A DNA stretch of 63,059 bases from a virus. The stretch spans positions 1 through 63,059 of IMG/VR virus record IMGVR_UViG_3300025879_000020; one strand, given 5' to 3'. The translations under genes and the position numbers were made by a program. This document shows positions 24,441-53,521 of the stretch, piece by piece. The notes under the pieces are model-generated. The model saw only the letters and a program-made list of their open reading frames with translations. It had not been told where the DNA came from and ran no database searches. The stretch's first letter is position 1. Each line of letters opens with the position of its first letter.

Positions 24441-25127
24441 CTAGTCCGAAATAAATTCGTCAACCAGAGGAAAGATTTTGGCGATTGCTTCGGCACATGC
24501 TCGTGCCACCTCAATGTGCTCCTTCTGAGTACCGTTGCCAGATCGAAGCTCAATAAAGTGAATCCAAGAGCGGATGCTACCTTGCATGTACAACCGTGAC
24601 TTGGTGTTACCTTCAGGCAGTACCGCACGAGCCTGTTCTTTGGCAATACCATTTGAGATAGCCCAGTTGTAAGCACCTTTGGCTGCTCGGATTACGTCTT
24701 GCTGTTTCTCGACCCACATCTTATTCGTTTCCCTAGCATCGGGATCCGTTAGGTCGATCTCAATCGAGTTCTGGCGGTTCTTCGTATCTTGAAGTCGAGC
24801 TTCACGGATAACGAACTGTTCTCCAAAGTCTGCTGGGTTAGCGTACCGTTGCGAGAACTCCTGGAAAGCAAACGAACGGTGGCGTAGCATTTGACGAGCA
24901 ATGTCTCGAGTCGTTTCGATTTCCATAGTAGCCGAAGCCATTTCGAACGGAGACCAATGCTTATGCTTTGCTAGGTAGTTTAGCAGCTTCGGTGCTGTTT
25001 CCGAGTTAATCTGATTAGAAGGGTTCGAGACTCGAGCGCAAAACGCAATCAAATCCTGAACATCTTGTAGACCAACAGATTCTTCGCCTGCGACTGGTTG
25101 TGTGTAGCCAATTAGATTTACTTTCAT
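24441..25127 (-). CDS. thyX: Flavin-dependent thymidylate synthase ThyX
   Basis: A 228-aa ThyX. The signature RHRSFAFQEFSQRY (about 81-94) contains the RHR...S.RY residues that hold dUMP and FAD. HKHWSPFEMASATMEI and GNTKSRLYMQGSIRSW are further conserved blocks. The enzyme makes dTMP from dUMP using methylene-tetrahydrofolate and NAD(P)H. In this genome it complements NrdAB in dNTP supply. Since ThyX methylates C5 of dUMP, it should not be mistaken for a cytosine-modifying enzyme. It lies 3 nt after the gp41 helicase. Confidence 0.95.
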   Translation of the reverse strand: MKVNLIGYTQPVAGEESVGLQDVQDLIAFCARVSNPSNQINSETAPKLLNYLAKHKHWSPFEMASATMEIETTRDIARQMLRHRSFAFQEFSQRYANPADFGEQFVIREARLQDTKNRQNSIEIDLTDPDARETNKMWVEKQQDVIRAAKGAYNWAISNGIAKEQARAVLPEGNTKSRLYMQGSIRSWIHFIELRSGNGTQKEHIEVARACAEAIAKIFPLVDEFISD

Positions 25128-29324: not shown

Positions 29325-29353
29325 ATTATACTATACTTCATCTAAGAAGTAAA
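29325..29353 (-). promoter_or_regulatory. Early promoter abutting the primase-like start codon
   Basis: Minus-strand TTTACT (29353-29348), 17-bp spacer, TATAAT (29330-29325). The expected TSS (29318) coincides with GTG-ATG at 29318-29313. Confidence 0.87.
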
Positions 29354-29698
29354 GTCCTTTTTCATAAACTCATTGATGTTCATCGCTTTGTCATCAACGT
29401 AGTAACTTGAGGCATATGGCTTACCGAATACGAGTTCGTCATATGGAACCTCGTATTCTGCTAACCAGTCCTGGGTTACCACGCCAACATCAGCAACAAT
29501 CTTGCCAACATCACCGTTGTGAGTTAACATTCTTCTCGCTGAGCTGATAATTATATAGTATCCCTGATCCTTCAGGGTTTGCATCTTCTCAATAAGAGAA
29601 ACGTTTGGTTTTGCGAGCCTATACTTACCGTGTGTTTCCTTAACATCATGGTTAGGGTAACAGATAGTGTCATCCAGATCAAAGACTATACTTTTCAA
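29342..29698 (-). CDS. HAD phosphatase of the capsule/LPS-type family
   Basis: A 118-aa protein with a TTG start (29698; GGAG 7 nt upstream) that opens LKSIVFDLDDTICYPN: HAD motif I DLDDT. IIISSARRMLTHNG (about 60-73) carries motif II Ser/Thr, FGKPYASSYYVDDKAMN carries Lys and the final DD. This subtype recurs in capsular polysaccharide and sugar-nucleotide loci, removing phosphate from sugar phosphates. It overlaps the nucleotidyltransferase-kinase gene by 20 nt and is presumably its pathway partner. Confidence 0.75.
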   Translation of the reverse strand: MKSIVFDLDDTICYPNHDVKETHGKYRLAKPNVSLIEKMQTLKDQGYYIIISSARRMLTHNGDVGKIVADVGVVTQDWLAEYEVPYDELVFGKPYASSYYVDDKAMNINEFMKKDFTS

Positions 29699-31190
29699 TG
29701 TTATTCTCCACGTAGTCAATGAAGCGTTGTTGGCGCTTCTCATCATCATAATGTAGCGGAACGCAACTAGCAATAAGAAGCAGCCCACCGCCGAGGATTA
29801 GGTCAACTGGCAGGTTGTACTCTCGGAGTTTACGAACGAAGATTTCTTTAACATCCTCGTTATGAGTAACGTTAGAAACCATACCGTTGTAACCATGGTA
29901 CAAGTCGTGCGCCAGTTTAGCCCAATCGTACAGGTCATCACCAAGTACTCCAGAATGCTCAGAATAAGAACCACGTGGGTCTAGTAGTCTGATCTGATCA
30001 GTTTGCTGATCGTACATGATGTTACCGAAGTGCAAATCACCGTGCATACCAGAGATAGGTTTAGACCTAACATAACACGCTTCGGATAGAGCAATTATAC
30101 TTGATTTTGTCGAAGAAGTAAAGCTAGTATTATCAACCCTTTCGGTAGTTTTACCGACCCACATTTCGCGAGATAACTCGGAAAAGTTCGAAACGAACCT
30201 AACATCCTCGCAGCGATTGTTGAAGAACTTCATCTTAACACGGAATACCTTATCTATGATGTACTCCCAAACAGATGGCGGAAGATTATCATATAACATA
30301 AGGTCGGACAATAACGTACCAGACTCGTATGACATAATCAGGTCAAACTCAGTATCAAATACTCTAGGAACAAACATAGATTGATGCTGAGATAAGTTAC
30401 GATACCATTCCTTCTCGAGCTGTAAGGTTCGAACAGATTCTGGCTTGTGATAATCAGGAGACTTACGAATAGTTCCAAGCTCCGGATCATACTCCATCGT
30501 ATTGAAGTCACGACTCTTTAGGTTCAACAGCTCGGCGCAAGTTTTGTAGAAAGATGGCAGATTGCCAATATCATACCACTTGTTAGTCGTTACTGACTTG
30601 AACGAACGGGTGTAGTCGTTAATGTAGTTTATAAGAGCTTCCGAAATCTCATAACCTTTAGCGTTGTTAAAGGCATTCTTGGCTTGAGTACCATACTCGA
30701 AAGAGTAAAGACCAACCAGAGCAACTGAGTTTGGAACCATGTAGCTCGGCTTGTCGTGAAACTCGTTACCGTCCCACATACACCAAGCAGAGTGATTATC
30801 ATCTTCTTTGTTCAGTAGGAAATCTGTACCCCAAGGCATATCTTCTTCTAAGATAATAGCGTCGCCGAGCCACACAACCAGAGGCAACTCAGGTTTAGAG
30901 AGTTCGTTGATACCCTTCATGATAGCATCACGAGGTCCATTTAACGAACCTTGCTTAACGAACCTAATGTCAGGGTGCTTGAGTTTACAGTACTGACGAA
31001 TGTCGTCAAACGCACCATCTACGATAATGATCTCGTTGATGTTCGCAGTCTTTTTCGCCTGCTCAACGATATAATCCAAGCATGGCTTACCGTTTACACG
31101 CACCATAATCTTAGATGTGTTAGAAGATAGCGGACGGAGTCGGGTTGCCGACCCAGCCGCAGGGATAACTAAATTAACCAAAGAACTCAT
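29679..31190 (-). CDS. Sugar/choline-type nucleotidyltransferase fused to a choline-kinase-like domain
   Basis: A 503-aa fusion. About 5-225: NTP-transferase (VIPAAGSATRLRPLSSNTSK, P-loop-like GxGxRL with Lys; VVWLGDAIIL with metal Asp110), related to GlmU/RfbA/LicC enzymes that make NDP-sugars or CDP-choline. About 255-500: APH/choline-kinase-like domain with GMHGDLHFGN (HGDLHxxN, 383-390) and RLLDPRG (402-407). One chain could phosphorylate a small molecule and activate it with a nucleotide. ATG 31190 has GGAG 9 nt upstream and overlaps the glycosyltransferase stop. An early promoter lies inside the gene. Confidence 0.8.
   Translation of the reverse strand: MSSLVNLVIPAAGSATRLRPLSSNTSKIMVRVNGKPCLDYIVEQAKKTANINEIIIVDGAFDDIRQYCKLKHPDIRFVKQGSLNGPRDAIMKGINELSKPELPLVVWLGDAIILEEDMPWGTDFLLNKEDDNHSAWCMWDGNEFHDKPSYMVPNSVALVGLYSFEYGTQAKNAFNNAKGYEISEALINYINDYTRSFKSVTTNKWYDIGNLPSFYKTCAELLNLKSRDFNTMEYDPELGTIRKSPDYHKPESVRTLQLEKEWYRNLSQHQSMFVPRVFDTEFDLIMSYESGTLLSDLMLYDNLPPSVWEYIIDKVFRVKMKFFNNRCEDVRFVSNFSELSREMWVGKTTERVDNTSFTSSTKSSIIALSEACYVRSKPISGMHGDLHFGNIMYDQQTDQIRLLDPRGSYSEHSGVLGDDLYDWAKLAHDLYHGYNGMVSNVTHNEDVKEIFVRKLREYNLPVDLILGGGLLLIASCVPLHYDDEKRQQRFIDYVENNIEKYSL
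30094..30122 (-). promoter_or_regulatory. Early promoter inside the nucleotidyltransferase-kinase gene
   Basis: Perfect minus-strand TTTACT (30122-30117), 17-bp spacer, TATAAT (30099-30094), lying within codons of the kinase half. It may give extra transcripts for the HAD phosphatase. Confidence 0.7.
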
Positions 31191-31989
31191 CAAGTGTTGC
31201 TCCAGATCTATCAATAAACGCCTTCTTCCAACTGATTACTGCTTCTACACGAGAGGTAGAATCTTCGTCGGTTGTCCAGGATGCGTTTTCTTTTACAGTC
31301 AACTTAACCACTCCAGGGAACTCACGTTGAAGTGCCTTGTAGCACATCTCTTGTAGTTCACCGTTACGGAAGGTAGAGTTGCCTCCAGGCTTACCGTGTG
31401 GGTGGTTAAAAGCATAATTATATATCACAGCATTCTTCATACCAGCCTTCAACAAAGATAGGATAGCATAGAAGTCTTCAAACAGTTTGATTTGGTTGTC
31501 TTTTCTATACATACCGTCGAAGGTAACACCATTATCGTTGAACATCTTGGTGTTGATACCATAGCAAGAGTACGAACGTGTAATCTCAACTAGATCTTCC
31601 TCGATACGGTTATTGCCAGCTCGGTCAGAAACGCCAACCCAAGCATACTCGTCAAGGTTTTTCTCAATAGTATCTAGCATGTCGAACCACTGTTCTTCCG
31701 ACTCTAGTTTCTTGAGCTTCATCTCATCGTCACGATACATAAAGGTACAGTTGTCATCAATGATAAGAATCTTACCGTTGTCACCAAGATTTACCAAACG
31801 CTGGCGGACATCAGCAATACCGTCAGTCATACCGATATCTAGAACGTCAGCATCAGGATAGTTTTCTTTTAAGATATCTACACGATCGCTTCGGGTACAC
31901 AGGGTGGTTCGCGAACGAACCGCCTCTGGCATATTGTCCCAACAGCGTTGGTTATCTTCACGCATTAATGTAGGGATTAAGATTCTCAT
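31174..31989 (-). CDS. TET/JBP-associated glycosyltransferase (TAGT-like)
   Basis: A 271-aa GT-A-like protein. N-terminus MRILIPTLMREDNQRCWDNM (substrate PTxxR block), then GDNGKILIIDDNCTFMYRDD with a DD metal-binding site (about 73-91). NAVIYNYAFNHPHGKPGGNS (about 184-203) and the Asp/Glu pattern fit TAGT enzymes, found beside phage TET/JBP dioxygenases and proposed to glycosylate hydroxymethylated bases. The last residues GATLDEFFG look like a clamp-binding peptide. Its ATG overlaps the dioxygenase TGA (ATGA). Confidence 0.7.
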   Translation of the reverse strand: MRILIPTLMREDNQRCWDNMPEAVRSRTTLCTRSDRVDILKENYPDADVLDIGMTDGIADVRQRLVNLGDNGKILIIDDNCTFMYRDDEMKLKKLESEEQWFDMLDTIEKNLDEYAWVGVSDRAGNNRIEEDLVEITRSYSCYGINTKMFNDNGVTFDGMYRKDNQIKLFEDFYAILSLLKAGMKNAVIYNYAFNHPHGKPGGNSTFRNGELQEMCYKALQREFPGVVKLTVKENASWTTDEDSTSRVEAVISWKKAFIDRSGATLDEFFG

Positions 31990-33392
31990 CCAAAGAAGTC
32001 CTCCAAACTTGCTTTCTCTTCAACAGCAGCTGGGTCATTACGCTCAGCCATTTCACGCCCACCGTTTTCCAGTAGGTAGTCATACCACTCTTGGCTATGC
32101 CACATACCTGGACTTACACCGTTCCAACGATCTCGCCATTCGGAATGCTCTTTATTCAATCGACGGTCGTCAACGAACTTACGTCGAAGCTGTTCGTAAT
32201 CCCAATCGCCAAGCTCTAGCATATCCTCACGGAAGTAGAACACAAGAGACATACGGAGTAGGTCATCTTCGCCAGACTCTGGGTTTTCGATAGGCATGTT
32301 ACCATGGATAATACGCATATTGTCAATCAACAGTAGGTCTCCTGGACGAACGTTAATCGCAGCACGAACTTCTGGAGTTACCAAGTAACCGCCTTTCCAG
32401 TCCTTACCTTCCGGAGAGATTACCGTTAGGTTAGAGAAACCTTCATTCAACGAGCCAGCATCACGATGGCAAGCCATACGGGCATTACGATCTTTCATTG
32501 TAGTGTTTACAGTGACAGTCGTAAAGGTAGTATCCTCGCCGATAAGGAACTTCTTATCAATCGAGTCAGCGCACTTCTTCTGAGCAGCATACCGATCTGG
32601 CAGTAAGTCCGCCATAGTCTGGTCTAGCTTACGAGCAAACGGATAACACTTCTCGAAGGTCTCACGGTTATTCTCAACGTGAGAAGTTGCTCGACCATAC
32701 GGAATACGTGGATAACGACCATAGAAACCTGTAATACCTGACCAGAGAGGGGTGGCATAAGAGGTGTCAGAGATCATCGTATCTTGTAGCTTCTGAGCAT
32801 ACTCTTTTGACTGCGAGACCGACATAAACTTCAGCCGTTCCATAGCAACATCAAAGAAGCCATCATATGTATCGAACTCAGCTTCGATCTTAGAACGAAG
32901 CCACACTTCTCCTCGTGTTTCATATTGAGCAACCTTGTGCTTCTCAATAATCTCTTCGATGGGGTCGTCCCCATAAACACCTTGACGAGAACCGCCGATA
33001 TAGTAGTCTAGAATGTCACGATGGAAAGGGGTAACCCAATCTCGCCCACCAGACTTCTCGGCACGTGGACCTGCCGCCATGCCTCGGTTATTTGATTCAC
33101 CAGCAGCAGAGAACAGCCCTTCAAAAGCACCATTTTGTTCAGCCTGAGTGAATACATTCTTACGGAATTTAAACGCACAACGATCTTCGGTTAGTTCACC
33201 ATTACCAGTAACGTCCGAAGATGGTAGGTAGAAGTCAGCGTCAGAATCAACAAGAATGTCGTACGAACTCTCATCGGCATACTTACCGATAATGTCCTCT
33301 TGGCTCACAGTGAACAAAGCGACATACACTTCTTGACCTTCAGAGCCAACGCCCTTTTGCCACTTATACCCACCAAACTCAACTATTTCCAT
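31986..33392 (-). CDS. TET/JBP-type 2-oxoglutarate/Fe(II) dioxygenase
   Basis: A 468-aa protein. The C-terminal half has a jelly-roll core: MACHRDAGSLNEGFSNLTV (HxD iron ligands His309/Asp311 followed by GFS), GGYLVTPEVRAAINVRPGDLL, MRIIHGNMPIE (His363) and LLRMSLVFYF (Arg380, 2-oxoglutarate). These match phage TET/JBP enzymes that oxidise 5-methyl- or thymine-type methyl groups in DNA. The N-terminal 280 residues are helical and unassigned. The C-terminus EKASLEDFFG matches the polymerase tail. It has its own early promoter (33416-33444) and GGAGG ribosome binding site. Confidence 0.8.
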   Translation of the reverse strand: MEIVEFGGYKWQKGVGSEGQEVYVALFTVSQEDIIGKYADESSYDILVDSDADFYLPSSDVTGNGELTEDRCAFKFRKNVFTQAEQNGAFEGLFSAAGESNNRGMAAGPRAEKSGGRDWVTPFHRDILDYYIGGSRQGVYGDDPIEEIIEKHKVAQYETRGEVWLRSKIEAEFDTYDGFFDVAMERLKFMSVSQSKEYAQKLQDTMISDTSYATPLWSGITGFYGRYPRIPYGRATSHVENNRETFEKCYPFARKLDQTMADLLPDRYAAQKKCADSIDKKFLIGEDTTFTTVTVNTTMKDRNARMACHRDAGSLNEGFSNLTVISPEGKDWKGGYLVTPEVRAAINVRPGDLLLIDNMRIIHGNMPIENPESGEDDLLRMSLVFYFREDMLELGDWDYEQLRRKFVDDRRLNKEHSEWRDRWNGVSPGMWHSQEWYDYLLENGGREMAERNDPAAVEEKASLEDFFG

Positions 33393-33415: not shown

Positions 33416-33444
33416 ATTATACCCTACTTTAAAAGGAAAGTAAA
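33416..33444 (-). promoter_or_regulatory. Early promoter of the TET-TAGT-kinase-HAD unit
   Basis: Minus-strand TTTACT (33444-33439), 17-bp spacer, TATAAT (33421-33416); TSS near 33409, 17 nt before the ATG. Confidence 0.87.
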
Positions 33445-33447
33445 GCA

Positions 33448-33852
33448 TTATTTATCCTGATCTCCCAATTTAAGGGTTCGGGCGAGGTCTGGTTCGGAAA
33501 ACCCTGGACCCTTTAGGATCTTACCATCCTCACGATAGATCGGCTTACCGTCCGCTCCCAACTTAGACATATTTGACCGCTGTACTTCAACGAAGCAGTC
33601 ATCAAGGTTAATACCGAATGCGTGACCAGCGCCATACGTGACGTACAGAATGTCGGTTAGCGCATCAGCGACTTCAACGATATCGTTGTTATCAAGAGCT
33701 TCGATCAGTTCCTCAAGTTCTTCCTTGATCAAATCGACTCGAAGGTCTTGTACTTCTTTTGAAGGCAGCTCAGGTTCTGAACGAACCTCTTGCCCAAAGG
33801 CATCCATAAAGACTTTAACTTTAAGGAAGTTGGTTCTATAGTAAGGCATCAT
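33448..33852 (-). CDS. mazG: MazG-like NTP pyrophosphohydrolase
   Basis: A 134-aa all-helical protein. Motif EELEELIEALDNNDIVEVAD plus ALTDILYVTYG matches the all-alpha NTP-PPase (MazG/HisE/dUTPase-like) Glu-Glu...Glu-x-x-Asp metal site. The family cleaves NTPs to NMP and pyrophosphate, and phage MazG is debated as a (p)ppGpp or dNTP-pool enzyme. The start is ATG 33852 or 33849, overlapping the polymerase stop, with its ribosome binding site AGAGGA encoded in the polymerase tail. If base modification occurs, it could also sanitise the nucleotide pool; that is speculative. Confidence 0.8.
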   Translation of the reverse strand: MMPYYRTNFLKVKVFMDAFGQEVRSEPELPSKEVQDLRVDLIKEELEELIEALDNNDIVEVADALTDILYVTYGAGHAFGINLDDCFVEVQRSNMSKLGADGKPIYREDGKILKGPGFSEPDLARTLKLGDQDK

Positions 33853-36368
33853 ACAAAAAAGTCCTCTAGGCTGACAGTATCTTCTTCGTTCCAACCGATG
33901 GCAGCCAGTATCGGGCGGACGACTTCAAGGAACGCCTTCTCAAACTGAAGGTCGTAGTCAATATATTTATGGATTTTCAATTCTTCGGGTAGGTAATCCG
34001 GAAACGCAATTACATTCTCCTTTATCGGGTTAGGGGTCTTAAGATAACAGAACTTGATCTTCTCGCCGTCTTTTATTGTAGCGTATCGTTTAAGGTTATT
34101 TTCCTGTAGCGCCTTATTATATAGAATAGAACCACGCACGTGAATGGGGCAACCTTTCTTGTACACCGTCGACCGATCCATCCAGTCGGTAACCTTTGAA
34201 ACTCCACGGGGAAAGGCGATCTGTTCTGGAGGCAGCTTAGTGAAGTGATCTTTAAACTGCGCAATTGCTTTCTGCGTATCTTTCTCGGTTCCAGTGACAA
34301 TCACCTTAAACAGAGCCTTTAACGCTTCACGGCAAGACATAGGAGTCGAAGACTTAACAGCTTCAATACCCATAATCTTTAGTTTCGGCTTGGCATACTG
34401 TACGCCTTCATTGTTGTGTACGTTTAGTATGTATCGCTTCTTCGCAGTCCAGATACCAGCATCGGCAATAGCTTCTCGAGCCATAACCATCTTATTCTCG
34501 TACGCATCCATGTACTCGGCAAGTTGATTGTAAGAACGTTCTAGCATAGGTTCAAACTGCTCACGACATACCTTATCAATCAAAGCAACAACTTCATCTT
34601 TTGGTTTCTTATCCCAACCAAGTTTATTAACCAAAGGTTCAAAATCGAGGTATAGGGAATCTGTATCGATAGCTATAACATGATCACCTTTTTCTTGACC
34701 AAGTATCTTATTAAGGAAAGTGTTTACGCTATGCTCTGCCCATCGGATCGATAGCTGACCAGATAATGTAATACCTTCAGCAATACGCAGGTCAAAGTAT
34801 CGGAACCAACGGTTACCAATCGCACCATAAAGTGAGTTCATCATAATCTTGTAAGCCATCTGCTCGTTATCGAGCGTGGTGATGGTTTTCTCTAGACGAT
34901 ACACTTCAGTATGGTTGCTCTTATCAACATGCTGTAGTTCTTGTTCGGCAGTAAGCATTTGCTTCTTAACAATCTTACGACCAGCATACATTTCCTCAAC
35001 CAGTTTAGGAATAATACCACGGATATCCTTACGATAGTGCGTACCGTTAGCAGCCATTGTACAATCAGGTCTAATCGATTCTGGCTTTCTAAGGGAAAGT
35101 ACCGAATCAACGTTCACTCCAGGAGTAATATCGTTTACAATGGTTTCCGGACTCATGTTGTACTGCATAATAAGGTGCGGATACAGTGAGTTCAAGTCAA
35201 AGGAAACCACCCAAGAGTGGCGACCAACTCGAGGTGCCTTAACATACCCACCAGGAAAGTCTGATTTAAACTTATCTTCTTTTGGCGGTGGAGCAACCTT
35301 ATCGTCGTGTAGAACCCGATAGATGTAGGTATCCCAGATACCAGTAGTACCAAACGCCTCTGTATAGTTTACGCCAGCCTTATACGCTAGTGTCATACAA
35401 AGGGTAATCAAGCCCATCTTATCTTCCATACGGTCAACCAACTCAACGTCTTTGATGTTGTAGTCGATAAACTTCTGGTGATCTTCTTTGTACAGGGTAT
35501 AAAGGTTACCGTGTTCTTCGTATGATAACTTCTTCTCGCCGAGAACTACGTGGGCGATGTGATCGAGTTTGTACGATTCCTCAGCTGTGTAGGTAAACTT
35601 CTTGTACAGGTCAAGGTAGTCAAGCAACTCGATACCCATCAACTCGAACTTCTGCTCGGTGCGGTTCATTATCTTGACTTCACGCTCGTTGATCTTACCC
35701 CAAGGTGATAGCTTCTTGACCATATCTTCGCCAATAACACGAGACATACGGTTTACCAAGTACGGAATATCAAATAGAGTAGAGTTCCAGCCAGTTACAA
35801 CATCGGGCATATTGCGTGGGCTAGACCAGTGGGTTACGAAATCCATTAGCAAACGAGCTTCAGACTCGCACTTATAGTAAACGACCTGATTCTCTTTCAT
35901 AAGTGACTTAGATACGTCGTAGTCGTCGAGACCCCATACATAGTAAGTATTATCTATGTTGTTCTTTAACGCAATAGAGATTACGGGATAGTTTGCTTGC
36001 CTTGGCTCGGGGAAACCTTCATCCGAAGCAACCTCAATATCGATAGTAGTTACGTTAATACTCTCGCGATTGAAGTCGATCTTTCCAGGATATTCTTTCT
36101 GAACATACTGGGCAAGGTAGTTGGTGTTGCCATACACCTTGAAGTTCGAGGCTTCTCCGTATTGTTGGATAAACTCGCGAGCTTCTTTCATTGTGTCGAA
36201 GTCGATATCCATTAAGGAGATACCGTCTAACGACTTCCAAGTACCCTTCTCGGAAGGTACAAATAGGGTGGGGGAGAACTTTACTCGTTCTGCGAATCGG
36301 TGGTTGTCTTTGTAGCCACGAACCAGAAGATCGTTACCAAAACGAGATACATTAGTGTAGAATTTCAT
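33849..36368 (-). CDS. gp43: Family B DNA polymerase, T4 gp43-like
   Basis: An 839-aa replicative polymerase. N-terminal domain, then 3'-5' exonuclease with TIDIEVASDEGFPEP (Exo I), GWNSTLFDIPYL (Exo II) and YNIKDVELVDR (Exo III). The palm has SFDLNSLYPHLIMQYNM (motif A), KIMMNSLYGAIGN (motif B) and AIDTDSLYLDF (motif C). The C-terminus EDTVSLEDFFV is the clamp-binding tail typical of gp43. RegA and gp62/44 lie just upstream and the clamp gp45 is at 42289. Own early promoter at 36396-36424. Confidence 0.97.
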   Translation of the reverse strand: MKFYTNVSRFGNDLLVRGYKDNHRFAERVKFSPTLFVPSEKGTWKSLDGISLMDIDFDTMKEAREFIQQYGEASNFKVYGNTNYLAQYVQKEYPGKIDFNRESINVTTIDIEVASDEGFPEPRQANYPVISIALKNNIDNTYYVWGLDDYDVSKSLMKENQVVYYKCESEARLLMDFVTHWSSPRNMPDVVTGWNSTLFDIPYLVNRMSRVIGEDMVKKLSPWGKINEREVKIMNRTEQKFELMGIELLDYLDLYKKFTYTAEESYKLDHIAHVVLGEKKLSYEEHGNLYTLYKEDHQKFIDYNIKDVELVDRMEDKMGLITLCMTLAYKAGVNYTEAFGTTGIWDTYIYRVLHDDKVAPPPKEDKFKSDFPGGYVKAPRVGRHSWVVSFDLNSLYPHLIMQYNMSPETIVNDITPGVNVDSVLSLRKPESIRPDCTMAANGTHYRKDIRGIIPKLVEEMYAGRKIVKKQMLTAEQELQHVDKSNHTEVYRLEKTITTLDNEQMAYKIMMNSLYGAIGNRWFRYFDLRIAEGITLSGQLSIRWAEHSVNTFLNKILGQEKGDHVIAIDTDSLYLDFEPLVNKLGWDKKPKDEVVALIDKVCREQFEPMLERSYNQLAEYMDAYENKMVMAREAIADAGIWTAKKRYILNVHNNEGVQYAKPKLKIMGIEAVKSSTPMSCREALKALFKVIVTGTEKDTQKAIAQFKDHFTKLPPEQIAFPRGVSKVTDWMDRSTVYKKGCPIHVRGSILYNKALQENNLKRYATIKDGEKIKFCYLKTPNPIKENVIAFPDYLPEELKIHKYIDYDLQFEKAFLEVVRPILAAIGWNEEDTVSLEDFFV

Positions 36369-53492: not shown

Positions 53493-53521
53493 ATTATACC
53501 TTTATTTATACGAAAAGTAAA
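53493..53521 (-). promoter_or_regulatory. Early promoter overlapping a late promoter
   Basis: Minus-strand TTTACT (53521-53516), 17-bp spacer, TATAAT (53498-53493). The spacer contains the late -10 TATAAATA. Predicted to serve the tail protein, uvsY and uvsW in both phases. Confidence 0.85.
53503..53510 (-). promoter_or_regulatory. Late promoter TATAAATA within the early promoter spacer
   Basis: Exact late -10, 29 nt upstream of ATG 53474. Overlap with the early promoter implies mutually exclusive use. Confidence 0.78.

Follow-up and report, generated by a model that had tools for sequence, protein, structure and literature searches.

A TET/JBP dioxygenase, a TAGT glycosyltransferase and a two-gene sugar-donor module form a candidate DNA-base glycosylation cassette in a T4-like phage

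A compact four-gene cassette of a T4-like phage most probably specifies a pathway for the post-replicative glycosylation of DNA bases, as judged from sequence comparisons and predicted structures. The window, by which we mean the whole stretch of DNA that was analysed, is the entire IMG/VR record of 63,059 bases and represents a genome fragment of this phage. As had been annotated initially, the four genes are located on the minus strand at 29342-33392 and each overlaps the next head to tail. They are referred to as TET, TAGT, FUS (a fused two-domain protein) and HAD, and are listed here with their promoters and with landmarks of the surrounding region.

31986..33392, minus strand: TET/JBP 2OG-Fe(II) dioxygenase (TET), 468 aa; PF12851 above gathering cut-off
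31174..31989, minus strand: TAGT-family glycosyltransferase (TAGT), 271 aa; PF20691 above gathering cut-off, phrog_842 with E 7e-40
29679..31190, minus strand: nucleotidyltransferase (N-terminal) fused to a PKL/APH-type kinase (C-terminal) (FUS); PF00483, motifs, AlphaFold
29342..29698, minus strand: HAD phosphatase (HAD), about 118 aa; TIGR01689-like below cut-off, phrog_1238/phrog_415
33416..33444, minus strand: early promoter TTTACT-N17-TATAAT ahead of the cassette, exact copy
30094..30122, minus strand: promoter copy within the FUS gene, exact TTTACT-N17-TATAAT
29325-29353: promoter copy just past HAD, exact TTTACT-N17-TATAAT
33448..33894, minus strand: MazG/PRA-PH-like pyrophosphohydrolase, upstream neighbour outside the cassette; PF01503, E 1e-22
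33849..36368, minus strand: family B DNA polymerase (gp43-like), marking the upstream side of this modification hotspot; PF00136
26809..27873, minus strand: UvsX-like recombinase, marking the downstream side of that hotspot; named from sequence

For two of the genes the likely start differs from that of the ORF. The FUS ORF opens with a TTG at 31214 (29679-31214) and the HAD ORF with a GTG at 29788, but relatives and the gene overlaps point to an ATG at 31190 and a TTG at 29698, respectively. This results in a HAD protein of 118 aa, which is also the length of its orthologue in locus L022. The promoter sequence occurs at 16 exact sites in the window (e.g. 717-745, 33416-33444 and 53493-53521), 15 of them on the minus strand, while only 0.01 are expected, and it thus represents a real phage promoter class. 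The early promoter at 33416-33444 that had been proposed for the cassette is an exact member of this class. To speak of a single promoter is slightly simplified, however, given the further copies within FUS and past HAD, the first of which could drive HAD separately. The whole set of genes, with its order kept, is also found in L010 and in L011/L012, where TET, TAGT and FUS are 75-88% and HAD is 63% identical to the window proteins. The UvsX-like gene adjoins the cassette or its counterpart also in L011, L022 and L155. Elsewhere, the window codes for a ThyX-type thymidylate synthase (24441-25127, minus strand; PF02511, E 1.4e-46).

Assignment of the dioxygenase to the TET/JBP family is considered firm on the basis of sequence profiles and of the structural model. 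It matches PF12851 with 58.6 bits (E 5.9e-16), well over the cut-off of 34.9 bits, and the HxD...H and Arg pattern noted initially corresponds to the iron ligands H309, D311 and H363 and to the 2OG-binding R380, which are invariant across 24 relatives. When a profile of these 24 relatives was compared to the PDB, human TET2 was matched with E 1.6e-4 and the HxD and H...R blocks were collinear. In a fold search with the predicted structure (pLDDT 83), all of the top 26 PDB matches belong to the TET family (CcTet, NgTet1, TET2 and CMD1). The profile alignment also places R388 at H1904 and S314 at N1387 of TET2, which we take to be its base-reading residues. Their use as a substrate test was dropped, because the equivalent of R388 is an arginine also in L155, which has a C5-methyltransferase, and so this residue does not separate 5mC from T.

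The second gene was correctly recognized as a TAGT glycosyltransferase, with 34.8 bits against PF20691 (E 2.1e-8) at a cut-off of 27.5 bits. DNA hypermodification by the combined action of TET/JBP and TAGT, which had been suggested from the letters alone, is thus supported by protein family, profile, fold, genomic position and relatives.

The two remaining genes would supply what TAGT transfers. FUS is indeed a fusion that starts with an NTP-transferase domain (PF00483, E 6e-14), but its second domain, initially described as choline-kinase-like, is an APH-type kinase: the choline-kinase model yields 17.6-18.2 bits, below the cut-off of 29 bits. K251, E267, HGDLHFGN and DPRG of this PKL kinase are invariant, and among 24 relatives the domain was matched by APH in 13 cases, by fructosamine kinase in 13 and by choline kinase in 7. 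A PDB search with the kinase domain by itself gave weak matches. In the AlphaFold model (pLDDT 90) the N-terminal domain is GalU/RmlA-like, and sugar-1-phosphate nucleotidylyltransferases of this kind (GalU/RmlA) lead its fold search, with LicC at rank 44. By sequence, however, the nearest solved protein is LicC (E 2.2e-10; profile 2.3e-12), and the class of the donor has therefore to be read from the context. The HAD protein, annotated as a phosphatase from the outset, resembles TIGR01689 (EcbF/BcbF capsule phosphatase) with E 2.8e-25 and 88.7 bits, below the cut-off of 162, and has the motif residues DLDDT, the S of SSARR, the K of GKP, and VDD.

A choline or ethanolamine headgroup had been among the initial proposals: a LicA-like kinase and a LicC-like cytidylyltransferase would make a CDP-alcohol, from which a phosphate-linked group is placed on the hydroxymethyl base. 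The similarity to LicC and a kinase domain that weakly resembles choline kinases speak for it, but we consider this very unlikely. Besides the subthreshold kinase score and the rank of LicC behind sugar enzymes, the proposal leaves a dedicated phosphatase unexplained, and the partner gene is a glycosyltransferase. A phosphatase, a kinase and a nucleotidyltransferase side by side are what one would expect for the activation of a sugar phosphate, as in the heptose pathways, while choline needs no phosphatase. HAD and FUS look like a swappable module for a nucleotide-sugar donor rather than a choline or ethanolamine route.

A survey of IMG/VR retrieved 220 relatives of FUS, and 87 loci were analysed for their neighbourhoods (8-10 kb). 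As many loci are near-copies of each other, the counts given for FUS and TET refer to records rather than to independent events, and the sequences behind our home-made HAD and FUS models come from the set itself. HAD is adjacent to FUS in 83 of the 87 loci, which again argues against a choline-type headgroup. TET is found near FUS in 7 loci and a TS-family base hydroxylase in 59, but the two never occur together (0 of 87). Many loci of the second type are from marine T4-like phages, with a cassette of TS-family enzyme, FUS, HAD, a candidate glycosyltransferase of about 415 aa and a C5-methyltransferase-like protein (PCxGLS); it is seen in L022:4865-10471, in L154, L144 and L137, and in about 60 further loci, often between polymerase and uvsX. 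L022 is a close relative of the window. Its UvsX is 74% identical and its HAD and FUS, in the same polymerase-uvsX interval, are 60% identical, but the place of TET and TAGT is taken by a TS-family enzyme, a C5-methyltransferase homologue and a candidate glycosyltransferase of 415 aa that has no match in Pfam.

These loci also bear on the suggestion that FUS and HAD have nothing to do with DNA and instead provide a nucleotide sugar for glycans of the capsule, the LPS or the virion. This would fit the resemblance of HAD to the EcbF/BcbF capsule phosphatases, and in cyanophage S-SRM01 the HAD-FUS pair does lie within a large glycosyltransferase cluster. That phage, however, has the only FUS locus that resembles a glycan cluster. 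In the other 86 of 87 loci, FUS is accompanied by genes for DNA-base modification, namely by TET, by a TS-family hydroxylase or, on fragment contigs, by the gene for the C5-methyltransferase-like protein that belongs to the TS-type cassette. The early promoter, the position among replication genes and the exclusive swap of TET against TS-family enzymes at one locus point in the same direction, and a role in surface glycans is highly improbable.

A close parallel is the arabinose locus of phage RB69, to which HAD and FUS are akin by sequence. The RB69 arabinosylation genes occupy the DNA polymerase-uvsX interval (PMC6024577), and phages of this type carry 5-ara-dC (PMC13390438). Even with SIS-linked seeds excluded, ORF051c of RB69 matched our HAD model and ORF052c/053c (ORF53_52c) matched the FUS model, so that both halves of FUS have a homologue there, with 67, 44 and 40 bits. 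As in the window, HAD and an NTP-transferase/kinase protein are encoded within this interval in RB69 and other Mosigvirus members. That homologues of FUS and HAD belong to an arabinose locus is a further argument against choline. The RB69 locus differs in having a SIS isomerase that resembles KdsD and a 5-hydroxy-dCMP synthase of the TS family, and none of eight tested proteins of the RB69 module matched TET or TAGT. Conversely, the TS-family hydroxylase (PF00303) is absent from the 63,059-base window, where TET appears to stand in for it. The SIS isomerase (PF01380), present in RB69 and AbTZA1, was not found in the TET-linked cassette relatives searched (the near-identical record G002, DLP6 and S-CBWM1). 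This counts against the proposed pathway; the sugar phosphate may, however, come from the host, and the window record is a fragment. With the exclusive TET and TS-family partners and the L022 and RB69 loci, the simplest reading is that HAD and FUS are a swappable donor module for an NDP-sugar, connected in this phage to TET and TAGT.

The transferase seems to belong to the donor rather than to the hydroxylase. The TAGTs of six loci with TET and FUS (the window, L011, L127, L155, L107 and DLP6) form one clade with a support of 98/98, while their TETs are scattered in the tree among TETs that lack FUS. The association of transferase and donor is thus closer than that of the hydroxylase with either of them. 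The TAGT of S-CBWM1, where kinase and nucleotidyltransferase are encoded by separate genes, is long-branched and does not group with this clade, and three TAGT-like genes that neighbour FUS loci of the TS type are only distantly related to it.

It remains to consider which base is modified. As stated initially, there is no cytosine methyltransferase in the window (PF00145 search); since the window is a fragment, such a gene may lie beyond it. Among 71 records bearing the TET clade of the window, however, PF00145 was found in only one (L155). The six complete genomes among them (C48C1, DLP6, Cr30, S-CBWM1, HTVC112P and P12024L) all lack it, including DLP6 with its same four genes. TS-family genes are likewise lacking in DLP6, C48C1 and S-CBWM1, so that no source of 5mC at the nucleotide level is seen in these three phages. 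ADDT (PF18724), presumably an amino-acid:DNA transferase of the hmU-pathway type as its Pfam name implies, is present at 41 of 81 TET loci, and the P-loop kinase Ploopntkinase3 (PF18751) at 38 of 81, most ADDT loci having the kinase as well; none of these is a FUS locus. In phages M6, ViI and phiW-14, hmU is the substrate of a 5hmdU DNA kinase and of alkylamine transferases (PMC6449724). The rarity of the C5-methyltransferase and the ADDT and kinase partners within the clade favour thymine (hmU), which we regard on sequence grounds as somewhat more probable than 5mC.

The cytosine route would require a C5-methyltransferase outside of the fragment to form 5mC, which TET converts to 5hmC and TAGT then decorates with the sugar of the NDP-sugar made by HAD and FUS. 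L155 speaks for it and makes cytosine a realistic alternative: a genuine C5-methyltransferase (PF00145, E 1.4e-55; L155:235-1434) is encoded just upstream of TET, and TET, TAGT, FUS and HAD follow in the same stretch; a second methyltransferase-like gene also lies just upstream of TET. The RB69-type donors, for which the product is known, serve cytosine (PMC13390438), and the phage TETs characterised so far use 5mC, according to a passage of PMC12730594 that cites Burke 2021. In view of the genomes described above, we nevertheless consider this route less likely than not. A phage analogue of base J, in which TET/JBP converts T to hmU in replicated DNA and TAGT then attaches a pentose or heptose taken from a nucleotide sugar that the phage makes itself, is a reading with a substantial, if less than even, chance of being correct. 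A JBP-like thymine hydroxylase is therein a serious possibility from the sequence data. Nothing on thymine dioxygenases of phages emerged from a search of the literature, and we know of no earlier phage JBP-like thymine hydroxylase.

Several TET loci have other partners. In L013:11446-16404 and L015:11392-16752, TET occurs with a class-II glutamine amidotransferase, an amidoligase-like protein, a GNAT acetyltransferase, ADDT and the P-loop kinase; these operons are candidates for a TET-initiated hypermodification of the amino-acid type. UDP-galactopyranose mutase is encoded near TET in phage C48C1 (L001:9001-12448; GLF, E 5.6e-52), together with a 344-aa protein of no assigned family, and in five further loci, so that galactofuranose on DNA is possible there. 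In Caulobacter phage Cr30 (L003:8992-15465) and in L209:7491-12420, TET is found with ADDT and inositol-1-phosphate synthase, and the base modification is possibly inositol-derived. If thymine is indeed the substrate, this TET clade would be a polymer-level thymine hydroxylase that feeds interchangeable modules: amino-acid transferase, galactofuranose-type, inositol-type, and the HAD-FUS sugar.

All four genes are found again in DLP6, L107, L127 and L155, and S-CBWM1 has them in a split form. To call the pathway new, as was done initially, is therefore too strong. In Stenotrophomonas phage DLP6 (KU682439; L002) all four are together in the AAY80_028-030 region, with 48% (TAGT), 55% (HAD), 52% (TET) and 24% (FUS) identity to the window, but in the order TAGT-HAD-FUS-TET. 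There, HAD is unannotated (L002:6895-7275, between the TAGT and FUS genes), TET is annotated as SNF2 repair protein, and the DLP6 paper assigns the FUS locus tag AAY80_029 to the ModA ADP-ribosyltransferase. DLP6 DNA is listed as restriction-enzyme resistant in a review (PMC8228603). Its use to distinguish C from T was dropped, because the review has no per-enzyme results and the thymine-modified DNA of phiW-14 likewise resists some GC-only sites (PMC6449724). DLP6 is, however, a cultured phage with published restriction resistance, and the question of the base is directly testable there.

For the cassette as a whole, the analysis establishes the gene content, the protein families, the promoter, the swapping of modules and the kinship of HAD and FUS to the RB69 arabinose locus. 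From these we infer each of the reactions, whether phosphatase or kinase acts first, and the sugar with its nucleotide and linkage. TET/JBP would hydroxylate a pyrimidine of the phage DNA at its 5-methyl group. HAD would remove the phosphate from a host sugar phosphate, likely of the pentose or heptose type; of the individual candidates, D-arabinose-5-phosphate seems the best. The free sugar would then be phosphorylated at C1 by the C-terminal PKL kinase of FUS, the N-terminal domain of FUS would make the NDP-sugar, and TAGT would move the sugar onto the hydroxymethyl group.

The cassette is thus of a known kind, TET-glycosyltransferase hypermodification, while glycosylated hmU in a phage would be a new and testable reading. 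A sugar-donor module known from cytosine arabinosylation is now tied to a TET/JBP hydroxylase, and the natural swaps at one locus show that the supply of the sugar and the hydroxylation of the base can be exchanged independently. Should the base be thymine, the cassette would have a bearing on the idea that TET/JBP arose in phages, and it would offer new enzymes with which glycosylated hmU or hmC could be written. Phage clusters of C5-methyltransferase, TET and glycosyltransferase have reportedly been described (Burke 2021; Pyle 2024). As in these, a TET-made hydroxymethylpyrimidine would be decorated by a phage glycosyltransferase, but in the window no C5-methyltransferase is seen and phage genes would make the sugar donor. 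ADDT and P-loop kinase of the kind used for hmU hypermodification in M6, ViI and phiW-14 occur in TET-clade relatives of the window; those phages, however, make hmU at the nucleotide level, and the window cassette has a glycosyltransferase instead. The base J pathway of kinetoplastids (JBP1/2 and JGT) likewise combines a TET/JBP hydroxylase with a separate glycosyltransferase, and thymine is a possible substrate here as well, but that pathway is eukaryotic, adds glucose and acts at sparse sites.
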